The notes under the pieces: generated by a model
Databases searched by the model: none
The model's input: only the letters and a program-made list of their open reading frames with translations
Told to the model about the DNA's origin: nothing
Program-made: the position numbers and the translations under genes
In this document: positions 9,198 to 44,190 of the stretch, one piece after another
How the letters are laid out: the number at the start of each line of letters is the position of its first letter
Position numbering within the stretch: the first letter of the stretch is position 1
Assembly (NCBI GenBank): GCA_027307335.1
Contig: DAHUXD010000007.1
Coordinates: forward strand, 1-44,670
Length of the DNA: 44,670 nt
From: Acidobacteriota bacterium
GTDB taxonomy: Bacteria; Acidobacteriota; Thermoanaerobaculia; UBA5066; Gp7-AA6
Direction of reading: 5' to 3'

Positions 9198-9297
9198 CCC
9201 CTCTCCCACCGGGAGCCGTCCACCGAAGGCAGACCCCCGGCGGTAGGCAACGCCGGCCGTCGAGGCCGGCGGTATCGGGGCCGGGGGTGAGGGGCGT
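9198..9297 (+). repeat. REP-like GC palindrome, copy 2 (expanded)
   Basis: The outer parts, CTCCCCTCTCCCACCGGGAG at the left and GGCCGGGGGTGAGGGGCG at the right, match the copies at 42853 and 44126. An extra 50 bases or so separate them, including an inner hairpin CGCCGGCC/GGCCGGCG. It occupies the space between the methyltransferase and the converging oxidoreductase gene. Confidence 0.65.
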
Positions 9298-9299
9298 GA

Positions 9300-10892
9300 C
9301 TAGGCGCGCGCCCTGAGGTCCTTCGCGATCTCGCGCGCCGCGTTCGCGCCGGGGGCGCCCGTGACGCCGCCGCCCGGGTGCGTGCCCGAGCCGCAGAGGT
9401 AGAGCCCTCGGACCGGCGTCCGATACTGCGCCCAGCCGAGCAGAGGGCGCATCGTGAACACCTGGTCGAGCGCCGGCTCGCCGTGGAAGACCTGGCCGCC
9501 GGTGAGGCCGTAGGTCTCCTCGAGGTCGAGCGGGGTCAGCACCTGGCGGTGCTTCACCATTCCGGTCAGTCCCGGCGCGTACCGCTCCAGGGTCCCGACC
9601 ACGGCGTCGCCGAGCGCTTCCTTCTTCGACTTCCAGTCGCCGTCCTTCAGCTTCGTCGGCGCGAACTGCGCGACGACCGACATGACGTGCTTGCCGGACG
9701 GCGCGAGCGAGGGATCGGTCAGCGTCGGGATCGTGACGTCGCAGTACGGCGACTCCGAGAAGTGGCCGTACTTGGCGGCGTCGAAGGCGCGCTCGAGGTA
9801 GTCGATGTCGGGGCCGATGTGGATGCGGCCGGCGAGCGCGCCGGAGGCGCCGTTCTTCGCGGCCGGGAACTGCGGGAGGCCGTCGAGCGCCAGGTGCACC
9901 TTCGCGATCGAGCCGAGCGCGCGGTAGTTGCGGACCTTCTGGACGAATCCCGGGTCGAGGTCGACCGGGTCCACGAGGCCGAGCAGCGTGCGCTTCGGGT
10001 CGGCGTTCGAGACGACCGCGCGTCCGAGCACCTCCTCGCCGGTCTTCAGCACGGCGCCCACGGCGGCGCCGTCGCGGGTCGCGAGCCGAGCGACCTCGGC
10101 GCCGGTGCGCACCTCGACGCCGAGCGCCCTCGCCGCGGCGAGCAGCGCCTGCGTCAGCGCGCCCATGCCGCCGCGCACGAACGTCGCCGAGCCGGCGGCG
10201 TTGGGCTCGAGCGCGGCGCCGATCAGGACGCCGAGGCTCGTCCCCGCCGACCAGGGGCCCGCGAAGACGCCGTAGATGCCGCGCGCCGCGATCGCGGCCC
10301 GCAGCAGCTCCGTCTCGAAGAACTCCGAGACCAGGTCCGCGACGGCCATGGGACCCCAGCGGAGCAGCCGGAACGCGTCCTTCTTCGGCAGCGCGCGGAA
10401 CTTGCGGCCGACGCCGAGGAGCTGCCACATCTCGCCCATCGACGGCTCGTCGATCGACGGCGGCGTCATGGTGAGGAACGGCGCGAGCAGCCGGCCGAGG
10501 CGGCCGAGCGACTCGTGGAACGCGAGATACCCCTTCGCGTCGTGCGGCGAGACGCGCTCGATGCCGGCGGCGGTCTTGCGTGCGTCCGCGTGGAGCGTGA
10601 TCGAAGGGCCCTCGAGCGCGGGCGCGAACACGCGCGCCTCGGTCTCGATCGTGGAGAGCCCGTGCCGGTCGAGCGCGAGGTCCCGGGCGATCGACGGCAG
10701 GAACGGCCCGGCCGTGTGCAGGATCGAGGAGACCCGGAACCCCTTCGCGAACTCCTCCGTCACGGCGATCCCGCCGACGACGGGGCGGCGCTCCAGGACG
10801 ACCGTCTTCAGGCCGGCCTTCGCGAGGTAGCACGCGGCGACGAGTCCATTGGGCCCGCCACCGACGACGACGACGTCCTTCTTCTCGGCCAT
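9300..10892 (-). CDS. FAD-dependent oxidoreductase, phytoene-desaturase/PYROXD2-like (paralogue 2)
   Basis: A 530-residue flavoprotein. The N-terminal dinucleotide-binding motif [21 protein letters not shown] and following [14 protein letters not shown] are typical of the carotenoid desaturase/amine oxidase superfamily. The C-terminal FAD-contact motif [20 protein letters not shown] is intact. It is collinear with the upstream paralogue over its whole length (shared [11 protein letters not shown] and [10 protein letters not shown] segments). Its ATG lies 8 bases after the stop of that gene, so they form an operon. The substrate is unknown. The family includes carotenoid desaturases, but no phytoene synthase or lycopene cyclase is nearby; the divergent Rieske and GcvT-like genes suggest another substrate. 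Confidence 0.8.
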
Positions 10893-10900
10893 TACACTTT

Positions 10901-12484
10901 CTAGCGCTTCCAGTCCGCGAGCACCTTCTCGGCCGCGTTCTTGCCGTTCGCGCCCATGATGCCGCCGCCCGGGTGCGTCGCCGAGCCGCACATGTAGAGA
11001 TTCCGGATCGGCGTGCGGTACTGCGCCCAGCCCGGCGCGGGCCGCAGGAAGAAGAGCTGCTCGAGCGTCAGCTCGCCCTGGAAGATGTTGCCCTCGGAGA
11101 GCCCCCACTCGCGCTCGAGGTCGAGCGGCGTGACCACCTGGCGGTGCTTGATGATGCTCTTGATGTTCGGCGCGTGCTCCGCGATCGTGTCGATGACCGT
11201 GTCGCCGAAGTTCTCCTTCTCCTTGTCCCAGTCCGAGTCCTTCAGCTTGTACGGCGCGTACTGGACGAAGCACGACATGACGTGCTTGCCCGGCGGCGCG
11301 AGCGACGGGTCCGTCAGCGTCGGGATGACCATGTCGATGTACGGCCGGCGCGAGAAGCGGCCGTACTTGGCGTCGTCATACGCGCGCTCCATGTACTCGA
11401 CGGCCGGCGAGATCGAGATCGCGCCGCGCAGGTGCGCGCCGGGACCGGGGATCGACCGGAACTCCGGCAGCGCGTCCAGCGCGAGGTTGACCTTGCCCGA
11501 CGAGCCGCGGAACTTGTAGCGCCGGATGTCCTCGACGAAGTCCTCCGGCAGCTCCTTCTCGCCGATCATCTTCATGAACGTCAGGCGCGGGTCGACGCTC
11601 GAGGAGACGACCGACGCCTCGACCTCGTCGCCGTTCTCGAGCACGACGCCCGTGGCGCGCCCGTTCGACAGCTTGATCTTCGCGATCGGCGCCTGCGTGC
11701 GGATCTCGACGCCGGCCTCCCGGGCCGCATCGCCGATCGCGTTCGAGATCGCGCCGGTACCGCCGCGCGCGAAGCCCCAGGATCGGAATGCGCCGTCGAT
11801 CTCGCCCATGTAGTGGTGGAGGAGGACGTAGGCCGTGCCGGGCGAGCGGACGCCGAGAAACGTGCCGATGATCCCGGAGGCGGACATCGTGGCCTTCAGC
11901 ACGTCGGTCTCGAACCACTGGTCGAGGAAGTCGACGGCCGACATCGTCATCAGCTGGACCTGGTTGTACTGGTCCTCCGCCGAAAGATTCTGGAAGCGCC
12001 GGCCGAGGAACAGCAGGTCCTGGAGGCCCTTCCACTGGAGCTTCGTCGGGTCGGGCGGCGTCATGCCGAGGATCGGCTTGACGAAGCGGCCCATGTCCGC
12101 CATCGCCTTTCCGTACTCGTCGTAGGCGTCGGCATCGAGCTTCGAGTGCCGGGCGATCTCGCGCCGGGTCTTGCCGTGGTCGTTGACGCGCCAGAGATAG
12201 TCGCCGTTCAGCATGGGCGTGAACGTGCCGTCGAGCGGCAGGATCTCGAGGCCGTGCCGGGGCAGGTCGAGGTCCCGAATGATCTCGGGCCGCAGGAGCG
12301 ACACGACGTACGAGCAGACCGAGAACTTGAAGCCGGGGAAGACCTCTTCCGTCACGGCCGCGCCGCCGAGGACGTGGCGGCGCTCGAGCACGAGCACCTT
12401 CTTCCCCGCCTTCGCGAGATAGGCGGCATGGATGAGGCCGTTGTGCCCGCCTCCGATGACGACGACGTCGTACTTCGCGCTCAT
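10901..12484 (-). CDS. FAD-dependent oxidoreductase, phytoene-desaturase/PYROXD2-like (paralogue 1)
   Basis: A 527-residue flavoprotein, first gene of the leftward operon. The FAD motif [21 protein letters not shown] begins at residue 7 and the C-terminal flavin motif [20 protein letters not shown] is intact. The frame extends upstream of ATG 12484, but the homology starts right after this ATG and AGGGGAAA lies about 11-18 bases before it, so this start is chosen. It is a tandem paralogue of the next gene; two related flavoproteins side by side may form a heteromer or act in sequence. It is divergent from the GcvT-like gene across a 149-base regulatory space. Confidence 0.8.
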
Positions 12485-29832: not shown

Positions 29833-31398
29833 ATGAAGAGACTGGCGATACTGGCACTCGCGCTCGCGCTCGTCGCGGGCAACGCATTCGCGCAGGATGC
29901 GTCCGGCTCCGGCAAGGATCCAGCGCCCACCCCGGCTCAGCTCGAGGAGATGAAGCGTGCGCTCGCGGCTCAGCAGGAGCAGCTCGAGAAACTGAAGAAA
30001 GAGGCGGCGGAACGCGACAAGGCGCTTCAGGAGATGCAGAAGCAGGTCGAGGAACAGCAGAAGCAGGTCCAGGACCAGCTGAAGCAGACCGAGGCCGCAG
30101 CCAAGCAGACCGAGGCGGCCGCGAAGCAGACCGAGGCGGCCGCGAATGCGGCGGCGCAGGCGGCCGAGGCGGCGAAGGCCAACCAGTTCCAGGGGCCGGC
30201 CGACCAGAATCTCGAGAAGCCGGGCGTCTACCAGGCATCCCTGAACAAGTCGCTCGCGGCGCTGCTGCAGCAGCCGAACCCCAACACCCAGCTGGTGACG
30301 CCGCCGTGGGCGGTGCTGAAGATCGCCGACAACGTGGTCTTCCGCTTCGGCTCCGTCATCCAGCCGACGTACGAGGCGCTCCAGGACCCCAACAGCGCCG
30401 GGTACTCGCAGAACTTCTACCTGCGGCGCGCCCGGTTCAACGTCACGGCCAACCTTCCCGAGAACGTCACCGTCTTCTTCCAGACCGACGATCCGCGCGT
30501 CGGATACTCGGGCACCACCGGCCAGAAGAACATCAACTCGGGCTTCCTGGTCCAGGACGCCTACGCGCAGTGGAATTTCCTGGGCCACGCGATGGCGCTC
30601 CAGGGCGGTGAATTCCTCGTCCCGCAAAACCGTCAGGTGCTGACGAGCGTTGCCACGTTCCTCGCGCTCGACCTCCCGACCTGGTCGCAGCAGGAGGGCA
30701 CGATCCTCGAGTGGAACGGCGGCCGGGACTACGGCGTGGGATTGAACGGCGCGCTCCTCAACGATCACCTGACCTACCGCACCGGCGTCTTCGAGGGCTA
30801 CCGCGCTCCGACGTCTCCGCAGGAGCCGCCCCTCGGCCCGGCCGCCGGTGCCCGGAACTCGCTCATGTTCGCCGGCCGCGTCCAGTACGACGTGTTCGAC
30901 ACGGAGTACGTGTACGCCTACCCGGGCACCAACCTCGGCAAGAAGAAGATGCTCGCGTTCGCCGGCTGGTACCAGGCCCAGAACTCCTACAAGGGCTACG
31001 GCGGCGACGTGTTCTTCGACTGGCCGGTTCTCCAGGGCGACGCGGTCACGGTCGAGGGCGACTACATGCACTTCGACGGCCACCGGGAGGTCTTCAACGA
31101 CAACGGAACGAACAACACGCTTCCCGAGCAGTACACGGTGTACACGAACGCCGGCTACTACTTCTGCCAGCTGAAGCTCCAGCCGTTCGTCCGCTACGAG
31201 TTCCTCCACTACACCGACGACGTCGTCAATCTGGCCAAGGGACAGCAGCGCGTGGGCGGTGGCTTCAACTATTACGTCTACGGGCAGAACTTCAAGATCG
31301 TCCCCTACTACGAGCGCATCCTCCCGAAGTCGCAGCCGGTGACGGCGCAGCTCAAGGACTTCAACCGGTTCGTCCTGGAGCTCCAGGGCTCCTTCTAG
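29833..31398 (+). CDS. Phosphate-type (OprP/OprO-like) outer-membrane porin
   Basis: A 521-residue exported protein. Signal peptide at 1-21 (cleaved after NAFA). Residues 30-115 form a Gln/Lys/Glu/Ala-rich coiled coil. The rest is a beta-barrel of amphipathic strands (LRRARFNVTANLPENVTVFFQTDD, YDVFDTEYVYAYPG) ending in FVLELQGSF, whose terminal Phe is the outer-membrane assembly signal. OprP-like porins let phosphate cross the outer membrane. Within the coiled coil, a 7-residue unit (KQTEAAA) is repeated three times, encoded by 21-base repeats. GGAGGAG lies just before the ATG. A PHO box upstream and a terminator downstream make it a single-gene unit ahead of pst. Confidence 0.82.
   Translation: MKRLAILALALALVAGNAFAQDASGSGKDPAPTPAQLEEMKRALAAQQEQLEKLKKEAAERDKALQEMQKQVEEQQKQVQDQLKQTEAAAKQTEAAAKQTEAAANAAAQAAEAAKANQFQGPADQNLEKPGVYQASLNKSLAALLQQPNPNTQLVTPPWAVLKIADNVVFRFGSVIQPTYEALQDPNSAGYSQNFYLRRARFNVTANLPENVTVFFQTDDPRVGYSGTTGQKNINSGFLVQDAYAQWNFLGHAMALQGGEFLVPQNRQVLTSVATFLALDLPTWSQQEGTILEWNGGRDYGVGLNGALLNDHLTYRTGVFEGYRAPTSPQEPPLGPAAGARNSLMFAGRVQYDVFDTEYVYAYPGTNLGKKKMLAFAGWYQAQNSYKGYGGDVFFDWPVLQGDAVTVEGDYMHFDGHREVFNDNGTNNTLPEQYTVYTNAGYYFCQLKLQPFVRYEFLHYTDDVVNLAKGQQRVGGGFNYYVYGQNFKIVPYYERILPKSQPVTAQLKDFNRFVLELQGSF
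30082..30144 (+). repeat. Three 21-base tandem repeats in the porin coiled coil
   Basis: Units at 30082-30102, 30103-30123 and 30124-30144 each encode K-Q-T-E-A-A-A. They differ only at synonymous positions; the second and third are identical. Such in-frame heptad units can expand or contract without shifting the frame. Confidence 0.85.
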
Positions 31399-39746: not shown

Positions 39747-40937
39747 TTGATCCGTCTGCTTCTCAAGCCCGGCCGCGACGAGTCGGTGCGGCGCCGCCAC
39801 CCCTGGCTCTTCTCGGGCGCGATCGCTTCCGCCGAAGGCGACGGCTCGGACGGTCTCGCCGAGGTCGCGGACGCGGCGGGCCGCGTGCTCGCGCACGGCG
39901 CGTACTCGCCGGGCTCGCAGATCGTCGCGCGGCTCTGGACGTTCGACGGCCGGCTTCCCGGCGACGAGCTCTTCCGCGAGCGCTTCCACGCCGCGCGGCG
40001 GCTCCGCGAGGAGGTCCTGCCGCCGGAGACGACCGGGTATCGCGCCGTCAACTCGGAGGGAGACGCGTGCCCGGGCGTTCTGCTCGACGTGTACGGGGAG
40101 ACCGCGGTGCTCGAGCTCCTGACCGAGGGCATCGAGGCCTGGGGCGCGGCGCTCGAGTCTGCGGCGCGGGAGGCGTTCGCGCCGGGGGAGCTGATCGTGA
40201 AGCGCAGCGGAGGAGAACGAGACCGTGCGAGATCACGCCCCTCACCCCGGCCCTCGCCCGGGGGGAGAGGGGGTCTCGAGGAAGGGCGCCGCGCGCCCTT
40301 CCTCGAAAATGGCCTGCGCTTCGTCGCCGACGTCGGCGCGGGGCAGAAGACGGGGTTCTTCCTCGACCAGCGCGAGAACCGCTCCCGGCTCCGCGCCCTC
40401 GCGCGGGGCCGCGGCGTGCTCAACCTCTTCTCCTACTCGGGCGCCTTCTCGATCGCGGCCCTCGCGGGCGGCGCCGTGCGCGCGGTCGACGTGGATTCGT
40501 CGGCCGCCGCGCTCGAGCTCGCTCGGGAGCACCGGGCCGCCAACGGCTTCGCCGCCGAGGATCGCGACTTCGTCGAGGCGGACGTGTTCGAGGACGTGCG
40601 GCGGCGCGCCGCGGCGGGGGAGCGGTGGGACGTGGTCGTCTGCGATCCGCCGGCCTTCGCGAAGAAGCGCGCGGACGTCGACCGCGCCGCGCGGGGATAC
40701 AAGGACGTCAACCGCGTCGCGATGGGGCTCGTCGCGCCGGGCGGCTGGCTGCTGACGTGCTCGTGCTCGGGGCTCGTCGACCCGGACCTCTTCCAGAAGA
40801 TCGTGTTCGCCGCGAGCCTCGATGCGGGCGTGCCGTTCTCGATCTCGGCGCGGCAGGGCGCGGGCGCGGACCATCCGGTGTCGCTCGACTGTCCCGAGGG
40901 CGAATATTTGAAGGGATTCTGGCTCCGCCGGGCATGA
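39747..40937 (+). CDS. rlmI: RlmI-type 23S rRNA (cytosine-5) methyltransferase
   Basis: A 396-residue class I SAM-dependent methyltransferase. An N-terminal PUA-like domain (1-70, RHPWLFSGAI) and central domain are followed by a Rossmann domain: GQKTGFFLDQRENR, VLNLFSYSGAFSIAA (SAM site), VVVCDPPAFAKKR (motif IV), and TCSCSG with the catalytic Cys. It should make m5C in 23S rRNA, as E. coli RlmI does at C1962. The start is TTG at 39747; no in-frame ATG fits. Residues about 161-186 are an in-frame insertion encoded by a REP-like palindrome, placed in the linker just before the catalytic domain, so activity may be kept. Confidence 0.88.
   Translation: MIRLLLKPGRDESVRRRHPWLFSGAIASAEGDGSDGLAEVADAAGRVLAHGAYSPGSQIVARLWTFDGRLPGDELFRERFHAARRLREEVLPPETTGYRAVNSEGDACPGVLLDVYGETAVLELLTEGIEAWGAALESAAREAFAPGELIVKRSGGERDRARSRPSPRPSPGGRGGLEEGRRAPFLENGLRFVADVGAGQKTGFFLDQRENRSRLRALARGRGVLNLFSYSGAFSIAALAGGAVRAVDVDSSAAALELAREHRAANGFAAEDRDFVEADVFEDVRRRAAAGERWDVVVCDPPAFAKKRADVDRAARGYKDVNRVAMGLVAPGGWLLTCSCSGLVDPDLFQKIVFAASLDAGVPFSISARQGAGADHPVSLDCPEGEYLKGFWLRRA
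40227..40306 (-). repeat. REP-like palindrome inserted in frame in rlmI, copy 3
   Basis: Two parts: CGCCCCTCACCCCGGCCCTC with GGGGGAGAGGGGG, as in the other copies, then a perfect 14-bp hairpin (40276-40289 with 40293-40306, loop CGC). Together they encode about 26 residues, rich in Arg, Pro, Gly and Ser, in the rlmI frame without a stop. Confidence 0.8.
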
Positions 40938-40967: not shown

Positions 40968-42839
40968 GTGATTGGGGCGCGCCGGATTCTGGGGCCTCTC
41001 TTCGGGATCGCGCTCGCGGCGGGCGTCCGGACGGCCCGCGCCGCCGATCAGAAGGTCCCGCCGCCGGTCGTCGAGGTCGGGCCCGCGGAGTTCCACGCGA
41101 CCACGCCGTACCCTCCCGTGCCCAGACGCTCCGATCTCGCCATGGCGGGGGGGCACCTTCCGGCCGACGCCCGCCACGACCTGGGCCCGCTCTCGGACGC
41201 CGAGCGCGCTCGACTGACGGCTCCCGATCGCCGCGGCGGGGGCCGCGCGAAGCGCGAGCGCATCGGCCTCTCGCGCCCCCTCCCGGGCGAGGTCGGCTTC
41301 CCCGCCCTGCCGTCGGACCTGGCGGCGGGTGCGTCGCGGACGGTCGGCGGCGGCCTCCTCGAGAGAGCCGCGGACGGGAGCCTCGTGTGGACGGCCTCGT
41401 TCTCCTCGGCGGGAGCCGGGGGACTTCGGCTCTACTTCAGCGCCGCGCGCCTGCCCGCGGGCAGCCTCGTCTACGTCTACGGCGGCGCCGACGAGATTCA
41501 CGGTCCCTACGACTTCAGCTCCGGCATCCGTCCGGAAGGCTTCTGGACGAACACGGTCCACGCGGACACGATCGTCCTCGAGGTCCGGATTCCCGCCGCC
41601 GCCGACGCCTCGGCGCTGTCGAAGGCCCTCCTCGTCGTGGGCAACCTCGTTCACCTCGAGCATCCGGTTTTCGCGCCTTCGACCTCGGGGAAGGCGTCGC
41701 CGTCCGCGCAACCCAAGTCCGACACCTGCTTCGTCGATCGCGCCTGCGTCACGGTGCAGGACTGGCCCGGGATCGTCGCGGCGTCGAACGCCGTCGCGCA
41801 GCTCACTTTCACCGACCAGGGTAGCGCCTACATCTGCACGGGCGGACTCCTCAATACTTCGCCCTCGAGCAACATCCCCTATCTGCTGACCGCGAACCAC
41901 TGCTTCGACAACCAGTCGGCGGCGACGTCGCTCGAGGCCGTCTGGCAGTACCGCCGGGCGTCCTGCAACGGGCCTCTTCCCGACGAGAACCAGTTCCCGA
42001 GCACCCTCGGCTCGACGCTCCTCGCCACCGCCAACGCCTCGAGCTCGAGCGACTTCACCTTCGTGCAACTGTCGTCTCCTCCGCCCCCCGGCAGCGTGAT
42101 GCTTGGCTGGACGACGGCCGATTTCCTCGGTACGGCCGGGCTCGTCGGATACCGGCTCAGCTACCCCATCAGCACTGACATGACCTACGTGGTGCCCCAG
42201 ATCTACACGCGCGACCAGCTCGTCGCGGTGTCGGACGCGGATTCCTGCGCGAGCCAGGGCATCTCCCCGAGCCGTTTTCTCTACGAGACGGACATTCAGG
42301 GCGGGACGGGCGGCGGCAGCTCCGGCTCGCCGCTGATGCTCGAGGATCTCCGGGTCATCGGGCAGGAGTACGGCGCCTGCGGCTCCAACCAGAGCGACAA
42401 CTGCGACAACGTCAGCAACTGGTCCGTCGACGGCGCGTTCAGCTACACCTTCCCCGCGCTCAAGCAGTGGCTGCAGCCGGGAGCGCCGGGGGCGTGCGTC
42501 GCGAACGCGACGACGCTCTGCCTCGACAACGCGCGCTTCCGCGTGACGGCCTTCTATGCGACGTCGGCGGGGGCGAGCGGGACCGGCATGGGCGTGCCGC
42601 TGACCGGAGACTCCGGTTACTTCTGGTTCTTCTCCGCGGACAACATCGAGCTCGTCGTGAAGGTGCTCACGGGCTGCGGGGTCAACAACAAGTTCTGGGT
42701 CTTCACCGGCGGCCTGACGAACGTCGGCGTCACGCTGCTCGTCGAGGACACGCTGACCGGCGCCTCGAAGGCGTACCCGAATCCGGTCGGCACCGCGTAC
42801 CTCCCGCTGCAGGACACGAACGCCTTCCCCTGCCCCTGA
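40968..42839 (+). CDS. Secreted trypsin-like serine protease with C-terminal module
   Basis: A 623-residue exported protein. Signal peptide at 1-25, a propeptide and beta domain to about 245, then a chymotrypsin/lysyl-endopeptidase-like domain (about 250-480). The catalytic triad is His311 in LLTANHC, Asp362 in SDFTFVQL and Ser452 in GGGSSGSPLM. The last 120 residues (from CVANATTLCLDNARFRV through GYFWFFSADNIELVVKV) form a module I associate with many secreted Acidobacteriota proteins; its function is unknown. The start is GTG 40968 with GAGG 13 bases upstream, so the spacing is poor, but the signal peptide begins here. A role in extracellular protein use is likely. Confidence 0.85.
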   Translation: MIGARRILGPLFGIALAAGVRTARAADQKVPPPVVEVGPAEFHATTPYPPVPRRSDLAMAGGHLPADARHDLGPLSDAERARLTAPDRRGGGRAKRERIGLSRPLPGEVGFPALPSDLAAGASRTVGGGLLERAADGSLVWTASFSSAGAGGLRLYFSAARLPAGSLVYVYGGADEIHGPYDFSSGIRPEGFWTNTVHADTIVLEVRIPAAADASALSKALLVVGNLVHLEHPVFAPSTSGKASPSAQPKSDTCFVDRACVTVQDWPGIVAASNAVAQLTFTDQGSAYICTGGLLNTSPSSNIPYLLTANHCFDNQSAATSLEAVWQYRRASCNGPLPDENQFPSTLGSTLLATANASSSSDFTFVQLSSPPPPGSVMLGWTTADFLGTAGLVGYRLSYPISTDMTYVVPQIYTRDQLVAVSDADSCASQGISPSRFLYETDIQGGTGGGSSGSPLMLEDLRVIGQEYGACGSNQSDNCDNVSNWSVDGAFSYTFPALKQWLQPGAPGACVANATTLCLDNARFRVTAFYATSAGASGTGMGVPLTGDSGYFWFFSADNIELVVKVLTGCGVNNKFWVFTGGLTNVGVTLLVEDTLTGASKAYPNPVGTAYLPLQDTNAFPCP

Positions 42840-42852
42840 CAAGAAACCGACG

Positions 42853-42891
42853 CCCCTCTCCCTCCGGGAGCGGGGCCGGGGGTGAGGGGCG
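42853..42891 (+). repeat. REP-like GC palindrome, copy 4
   Basis: CGCCCCTC at the left pairs with GAGGGGCG at the right, enclosing CTCCCTCCGGGAG and GGGGCCGGGGGT. It lies in the 91-base gap between the protease stop and the acyl-CoA dehydrogenase start. Confidence 0.75.
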
Positions 42892-42930
42892 CGATCGAGC
42901 CGGGCAGCCTGCCGTTATACTCCGCCTCCC

Positions 42931-44103
<1,173 letters not shown>

Positions 44104-44125: not shown

Positions 44126-44170
44126 TCCGCCTCCTCCCTCTCCCTCCGGGAGAGGGCTGGGGTGAGGGGC
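44126..44170 (+). repeat. REP-like GC palindrome, copy 5
   Basis: CTCCCTCTCCCTCCGGGAGA continues into GGGCTGGGGTGAGGGGCG. It is the best match to copy 4 and lies between the acyl-CoA dehydrogenase stop and the next gene. Confidence 0.75.
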
Positions 44171-44190
44171 GTCCGAGTGACGAGGTCCTA

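Follow-up and report, generated by a model that had tools for sequence, protein, structure and literature searches.

A copy of the BoxC motif, which occurs between genes of E. coli and many other bacteria and is also described as a G/C-rich class II intrastrand triplex motif (TM), lies in frame inside an rlmI-like gene of an uncultured Acidobacterium. This copy probably became part of a flexible linker of the RlmI-like protein and was tolerated there, and adjacent native sequence was copied in inverted orientation. A mostly extragenic repeat that is tolerated in flexible protein linkers is the best reading of our results. A repeat of this bacterium is now tied to a named motif whose biophysics are known, and BoxC/TM becomes readable as protein, although all its E. 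coli copies are reported to be intergenic.

Identity and dispersal of the repeat

In the window, which is the whole 44,670-nt stretch of DNA analysed here, the gene for an RlmI-like 23S rRNA (cytosine-C5) methyltransferase occupied positions 39747–40937 of the + strand, with a TTG start codon and 396 encoded amino acid residues. Positions 40239–40271 of this gene fitted exactly, on the minus strand, the consensus of the E. coli motif, CCCTCNCCC-N3-6-GGGNGAGGG-N3-GGGNGAGGG (PMC4666352). This motif, TM (TMECO), was earlier called BoxC or PIT element (Holder et al., 2015, PMC4666352). The minus strand of the rlmI copy read CCCTCTCCC-CCC-GGGCGAGGG-CCG-GGGTGAGGG and had the same three blocks as BoxC/TM together with a CCG loop, which is type B in the TM scheme (PMC4666352). 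The repeat in rlmI is the known BoxC/TM motif, 33–37 nt in length and C-rich/G-rich, and not a new family. The member of the dispersed family spanned positions 40235–40273 of the rlmI ORF. A wider repeat-related stretch was found at 40227–40275 of the + strand; its ends are approximate and its shared 5' edge, GATCACGC, differed among the copies. On the + strand, the TM copy with its edges encoded about residues 164–176 (RPSPRPSPGGRGG).

In complete genomes of E. coli, a stretch of 36 nt was identical to the repeat consensus of the genome studied here, for instance in the phnK-phnL spacer, and DNA similar to the repeat was present in 4402 of 5426 E. coli genomes. The triplex folding of the TM single strand was demonstrated by CD and NMR, and a stable triplex in vivo was not found by Holder et al. 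(PMC4666352). A search of the window against Rfam returned no family at its gathering score, and a literature search gave one unrelated paper for the repeat DNA and no paper for the repeat-encoded peptides.

The dispersal of the repeat was far above that expected by chance, as CCCTCACCCC had 115 exact matches in the 4.37-Mb genome compared with 5 for the reversed control. BLAST recovered dozens of copies in the same genome, the best of which were 95% identical to the rlmI copy over 39–41 nt. When two mismatches were allowed, CCCTCACCCCNNCCCTC was found four times in the window, with 0.29 expected. Two further copies, both on the minus strand, were situated in intergenic spacers, at 42854–42894 downstream of the ORF at 40968–42839 and at 44136–44172 after an ORF that ends at 44103 and looks like an acyl-CoA dehydrogenase gene. 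A degenerate partial copy with the core CCCTCACCCCCGGCCCC was at 9259–9299 of the minus strand. The window also held other repeated sequences. Positions 9337–12484 contained two diverged copies of neighbouring stretches with 73–76% identity and a spacing of about 1595 bp, which suggest a tandem gene duplication, and four in-register copies of a 21-nt tandem repeat were found at 30060–30164, inside a long + strand ORF starting near 29833.

From the stretches around the genome matches, 107 distinct copies were gathered, and the genes near them were called by a script using codon usage learned from the window, so that the following counts rest on our own calls and not on annotation. The copies were mainly intergenic (86), 15 overlapped a gene edge, several of them encoding C-terminal tails, and 6 were internal to five ORFs. 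Where intergenic copies had two neighbours, these were tandem in 41 cases, convergent in 37 and divergent in 4. Thus, the original prediction of a dispersed, mainly intergenic repeat was borne out, and by the same counts its spread does not favour coding sequence. The strict TM consensus was fitted by 34 of the 107 copies, and the rest had longer second spacers or mismatches. Similar to BoxC/TM of E. coli, the repeat was dispersed and inverted pairs of different loop types were found. Different from E. coli, however, many copies had longer second spacers (GGTAG, GCGTAG), and six were inside ORFs, whereas all E. coli copies are reported as intergenic (PMC4666352). The rlmI copy, internal and in frame, also departs from this location, a feature that was reported for E. 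coli and lies outside the sequence definition of TM. Many loci of the GGTAG-spacer subfamily (e.g., L004, L016, L022, and L086) had a conserved T-rich tail like GTGTCGTTTCTTTGTATGGC behind the motif; part of the family may thus have a unit longer than BoxC.

The repeat had been labelled REP-like. If a Y1 (RAYT-like) transposase had moved it into rlmI, as a non-autonomous REP/RPE-type unit that spreads through genes, this would account for its dispersal, its occasional close inverted pairs and its presence in several genes. The genome contained two Y1_Tnp genes, and the outcome resembles that of Rickettsia palindromic elements (RPEs) and of intragenic REPs. However, neither Y1_Tnp gene was flanked by repeat copies, as no TM-like copy was found within about 1.5 kb of either, and the flanks of the copies showed no target-site duplication above shuffled partners. 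In E. coli, no tie of TM to mobile elements was found by Holder et al. (PMC4666352). Moreover, the published CGTC/GTAG tags and stems differ from the BoxC/TM motif. CGTC REPs are defined by a tag at the end of the stem-loop and a stem of 8–9 bp whose first and second pairs are A-T (PMC3733652). Membership in the GTAG/CGTC REPs was considered and rejected, as the stem CCCTCTCCC/GGGAGAGGG had no adjoining tag in the listed copies inspected by eye. Where GACG was present, it was beyond the third block and not at the stem. Transposase-driven movement is therefore unlikely, and the REP-like label gives way to the published BoxC/TM motif, which is neither an RPE nor a GTAG/CGTC REP.

The likeness to both systems lies in their effect on genes. 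Similar to the rlmI copy, RPEs are palindromic repeats that sit in frame in unrelated genes whose proteins tolerate them. RPEs, however, are about 150 bp long and nearly half of them are in ORFs (PMC10969869), compared with 6 of the 107 copies here; they were compared by their described length and location (PMC10969869, PMC3733652). Given the in-frame location and the further coding copies, the comparison with RPEs drawn by the original prediction is fair as to effect, although not as to identity. GTAG/CGTC REPs are palindromes of 20–40 bp that also form dimers and are mostly between tandem or convergent genes, with a minority in ORFs (Di Nocera et al., 2013, PMC3733652). Different from these REPs, the stem here carried no tag, and in its place a third C-rich block lay before the stem. 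In-gene palindromic repeats are already known from RPEs and GTAG/CGTC REPs, and the coding sequence is an unusual location for BoxC/TM. No paper on coding BoxC was found in the literature searched, which was mostly outside subscription journals.

The RlmI-like protein and its linker

The RlmI-like protein matched PRK15128 over residues 2–393 in a profile comparison (E = 8.3e-89) and E. coli RlmI (3c0k) with E = 7.9e-85. The full-length match and the conserved catalytic residues, D300-P-P and C340, place it among the RlmI-like proteins. As its score of 298 bits was below the curated equivalog cut-off of PRK15128 (712 bits), its exact rRNA target is only putative. All 38 alignment columns that were invariant in 32 orthologues were kept here, including D300-P-P and C340. 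The dN/dS ratios against the nearest relative were 0.24 for the part upstream of the insert and 0.15 for the downstream part, values that mostly reflect the time before insertion. The AlphaFold2 model, built with 32 orthologues, had a mean pLDDT of 91.1, and pLDDT fell below 50 only at residues 159–176, which contain the repeat-encoded residues 164–176. In the model, low confidence is thus confined to the linker.

The 396-codon ORF was uninterrupted despite the repeat, and its sequence gave no sign of a broken gene, in agreement with the in-frame insertion claimed at the outset. Together with the model, these features suggest that the enzyme may stay intact despite the in-frame repeat, and we infer that the RlmI-like protein probably works. 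A decaying gene, i.e., a pseudogene in the making, would be consistent with the disturbance of the linker by the insert and with a strong hairpin (−56 kcal/mol) that the mRNA can form, but the open frame, the conserved residues, a positive coding score on both sides of the insert and the confident model argue against decay. In addition, no second rlmI was found in the genome, so that this is the sole copy. We consider decay very improbable. Even less probable is an assembly chimera, for which the fragmented state of the draft genome (65 contigs) and the repeated nature of the motif could speak. The sequences on either side are parts of one gene, in order and in frame, the motif is presumably shorter than a typical read, and several other genes are alike.

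The segment delimited by the conserved ER and PF comprised 25 residues here, compared with 16 and 19 in two orthologues of the same family, from the closest relative (G001) and from G002, respectively. In more distant members of the order, the native linker was either similar in length or far shorter. E. coli RlmI has its own linker at the site and, with 396 residues, is equal in length to the protein studied here. The net gain was about 6–10 residues relative to the closest relatives and zero relative to E. coli RlmI, which does not agree with the addition of about 26 residues proposed originally. The net gain is small because orthologues possess a native linker at the site, and the repeat thus occupies a linker of variable length. 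The repeat-derived linker sequence was found in none of the aligned orthologues. A segment of similar length without any repeat, named beforehand as a sign of native linker, was therefore found in orthologues, but not with the same sequence.

The similar length of the linker in orthologues, including E. coli RlmI, is what would be expected if a native linker had come to resemble the repeat through convergence of Arg/Pro codons in GC-rich DNA, but this hardly credible reading is already refuted at the sequence level by the exact TM consensus, by a match of 41 nt to another genome copy with 95% identity (E = 4.8e-12, the best BLAST match), by the codon-usage score of −16.8 in the block holding the element, nearly all other blocks being positive, and by the absence of the sequence from orthologues.

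Under the preferred reading of a tolerated BoxC/TM copy, the motif would have joined the flexible linker that connects the middle domain of RlmI to its SAM domain. There it would occupy a variable-length linker already present in orthologues and be read through without a stop codon, and its tolerance would be due to the lack of conserved structure in the loop.

The 14-bp hairpin beside the repeat

A perfect hairpin adjoined the repeat. Its 5' arm, TCGAGGAAGGGCGC, was at 40276–40289 and its 3' arm, GCGCCCTTCCTCGA, at 40293–40306, both given for the + strand; the arms were perfectly complementary, with a 3-nt loop at 40290–40292. Perfect inverted repeats of at least 14 bp were found in 0.03% of control 80-bp windows. 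The 3' arm encodes A-P-F-L-E, which is conserved in orthologues (with codons such as GTA CCT TTT CTC GAA and GTC CCG TTT CTC GAG), and is thus native to rlmI. The 5' arm, which lies outside the repeat family, repeats these native downstream codons in inverted orientation, and no counterpart of it was found in orthologues or in the flanks of other repeat copies.

The hairpin was also considered as part of the repeat. This was rejected, as BLAST matches of the family stopped near 40278, a few weaker ones going slightly beyond, and the one-mismatch counts of GAGGAAGGGCGC were only slightly higher (84 + 97) than those of the reversed control (72 + 70). Beside the other copies, no regular palindromes were found beyond adjacent TM copies and ordinary hairpins. 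Thus, the perfect 14-bp hairpin noticed originally does exist, but it does not belong to the repeat family, its 3' arm being native and the hairpin itself being absent from the flanks of other copies. Judged from the sequence, the hairpin represents native DNA duplicated locally in inverted orientation.

Such a duplication may have arisen via template switching, as a single case that was noticed post hoc. A replication fork would stall at the repeat, and a template switch would copy 14–17 nt of native rlmI sequence in inverted orientation. PIT/BoxC elements arrest DNA polymerase in vitro, and an excess of small changes is clustered at TM loci among E. coli strains (PMC4666352). Given these two observations, a stall at TM would be a natural trigger of the template switch, and TM may have triggered it here. 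Similar to quasipalindrome template-switch mutations, the hairpin is perfect and one arm looks newly copied from the native arm in inverted orientation. Different from them, it adjoins a polymerase-arrest motif in a coding region, as one example with a putative mechanism. If the palindrome is a scar of template switching, coding copies would form a natural, frame-checked record of the effect of an arrest motif on adjacent DNA.

Coding copies in other genes and genomes

A search of the genome for further coding copies found five internal copies in four more ORFs. Single in-frame copies were in the genes for a two-domain glycosyltransferase, a kinase-TonB protein and a multihaem cytochrome with TPRs, and two inverted copies were in the gene for a TolB-like beta-propeller protein, whose C-terminal part is amidohydrolase-like by eye. 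In each of the five ORFs including rlmI, the coding score dipped at or beside the element and was positive on both sides. Five of the six frames of the consensus were open, so that an in-frame state is not improbable given a fitting length.

The net gain of the cytochrome was 4 residues relative to G001 and 11 relative to G002. The linker of the kinase-TonB protein was variable throughout among relatives, and the glycosyltransferase orthologues aligned poorly at the element. The inverted pair of the beta-propeller protein added about 39 residues relative to the relative from G002, and this pair is a cleaner case of presence and absence than rlmI. The two copies are 25 nt apart, at 1495–1594 of locus L188 (G000:C18:110400-113500). 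The G002 relative (L251, G002:C30:4573-6875) was found as separate matching pieces that lack query residues 542–654, one of them with a stop codon; this allele may thus be broken.

The nearest named relative of the host was an Acidobacteria gp7 AA6 genome, and the host probably belongs to Thermoanaerobaculia. The spread of the repeat among Acidobacteriota was patchy. A stricter pattern was found in 11 of 199 Acidobacteriota genomes, and a looser one gave no copies in G001 and 12 in G002. Plasmids of several bacteria, among them Azospirillum and Klebsiella, carried related copies, and only three matches, all weak, were to phages. BoxC/TM might be a recurrent source of protein linkers that crosses phyla (Acidobacteriota, Proteobacteria) and remodels neighbouring codons through polymerase arrest, a broader proposal that we regard as possible but doubtful.

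In-frame copies were also found in three annotated genes of proteobacterial plasmids. The dihydrolipoamide acetyltransferase gene of a Sphingomonas plasmid contained a BoxC/TM copy in an open frame (L285, 2001–2043), rbbA of an Azospirillum plasmid apparently contained two (L286, 3001–3038), also in an open frame, and the BREX-2 gene pglX of a Polaromonas plasmid contained one in an open frame (L287, 4001–4035).
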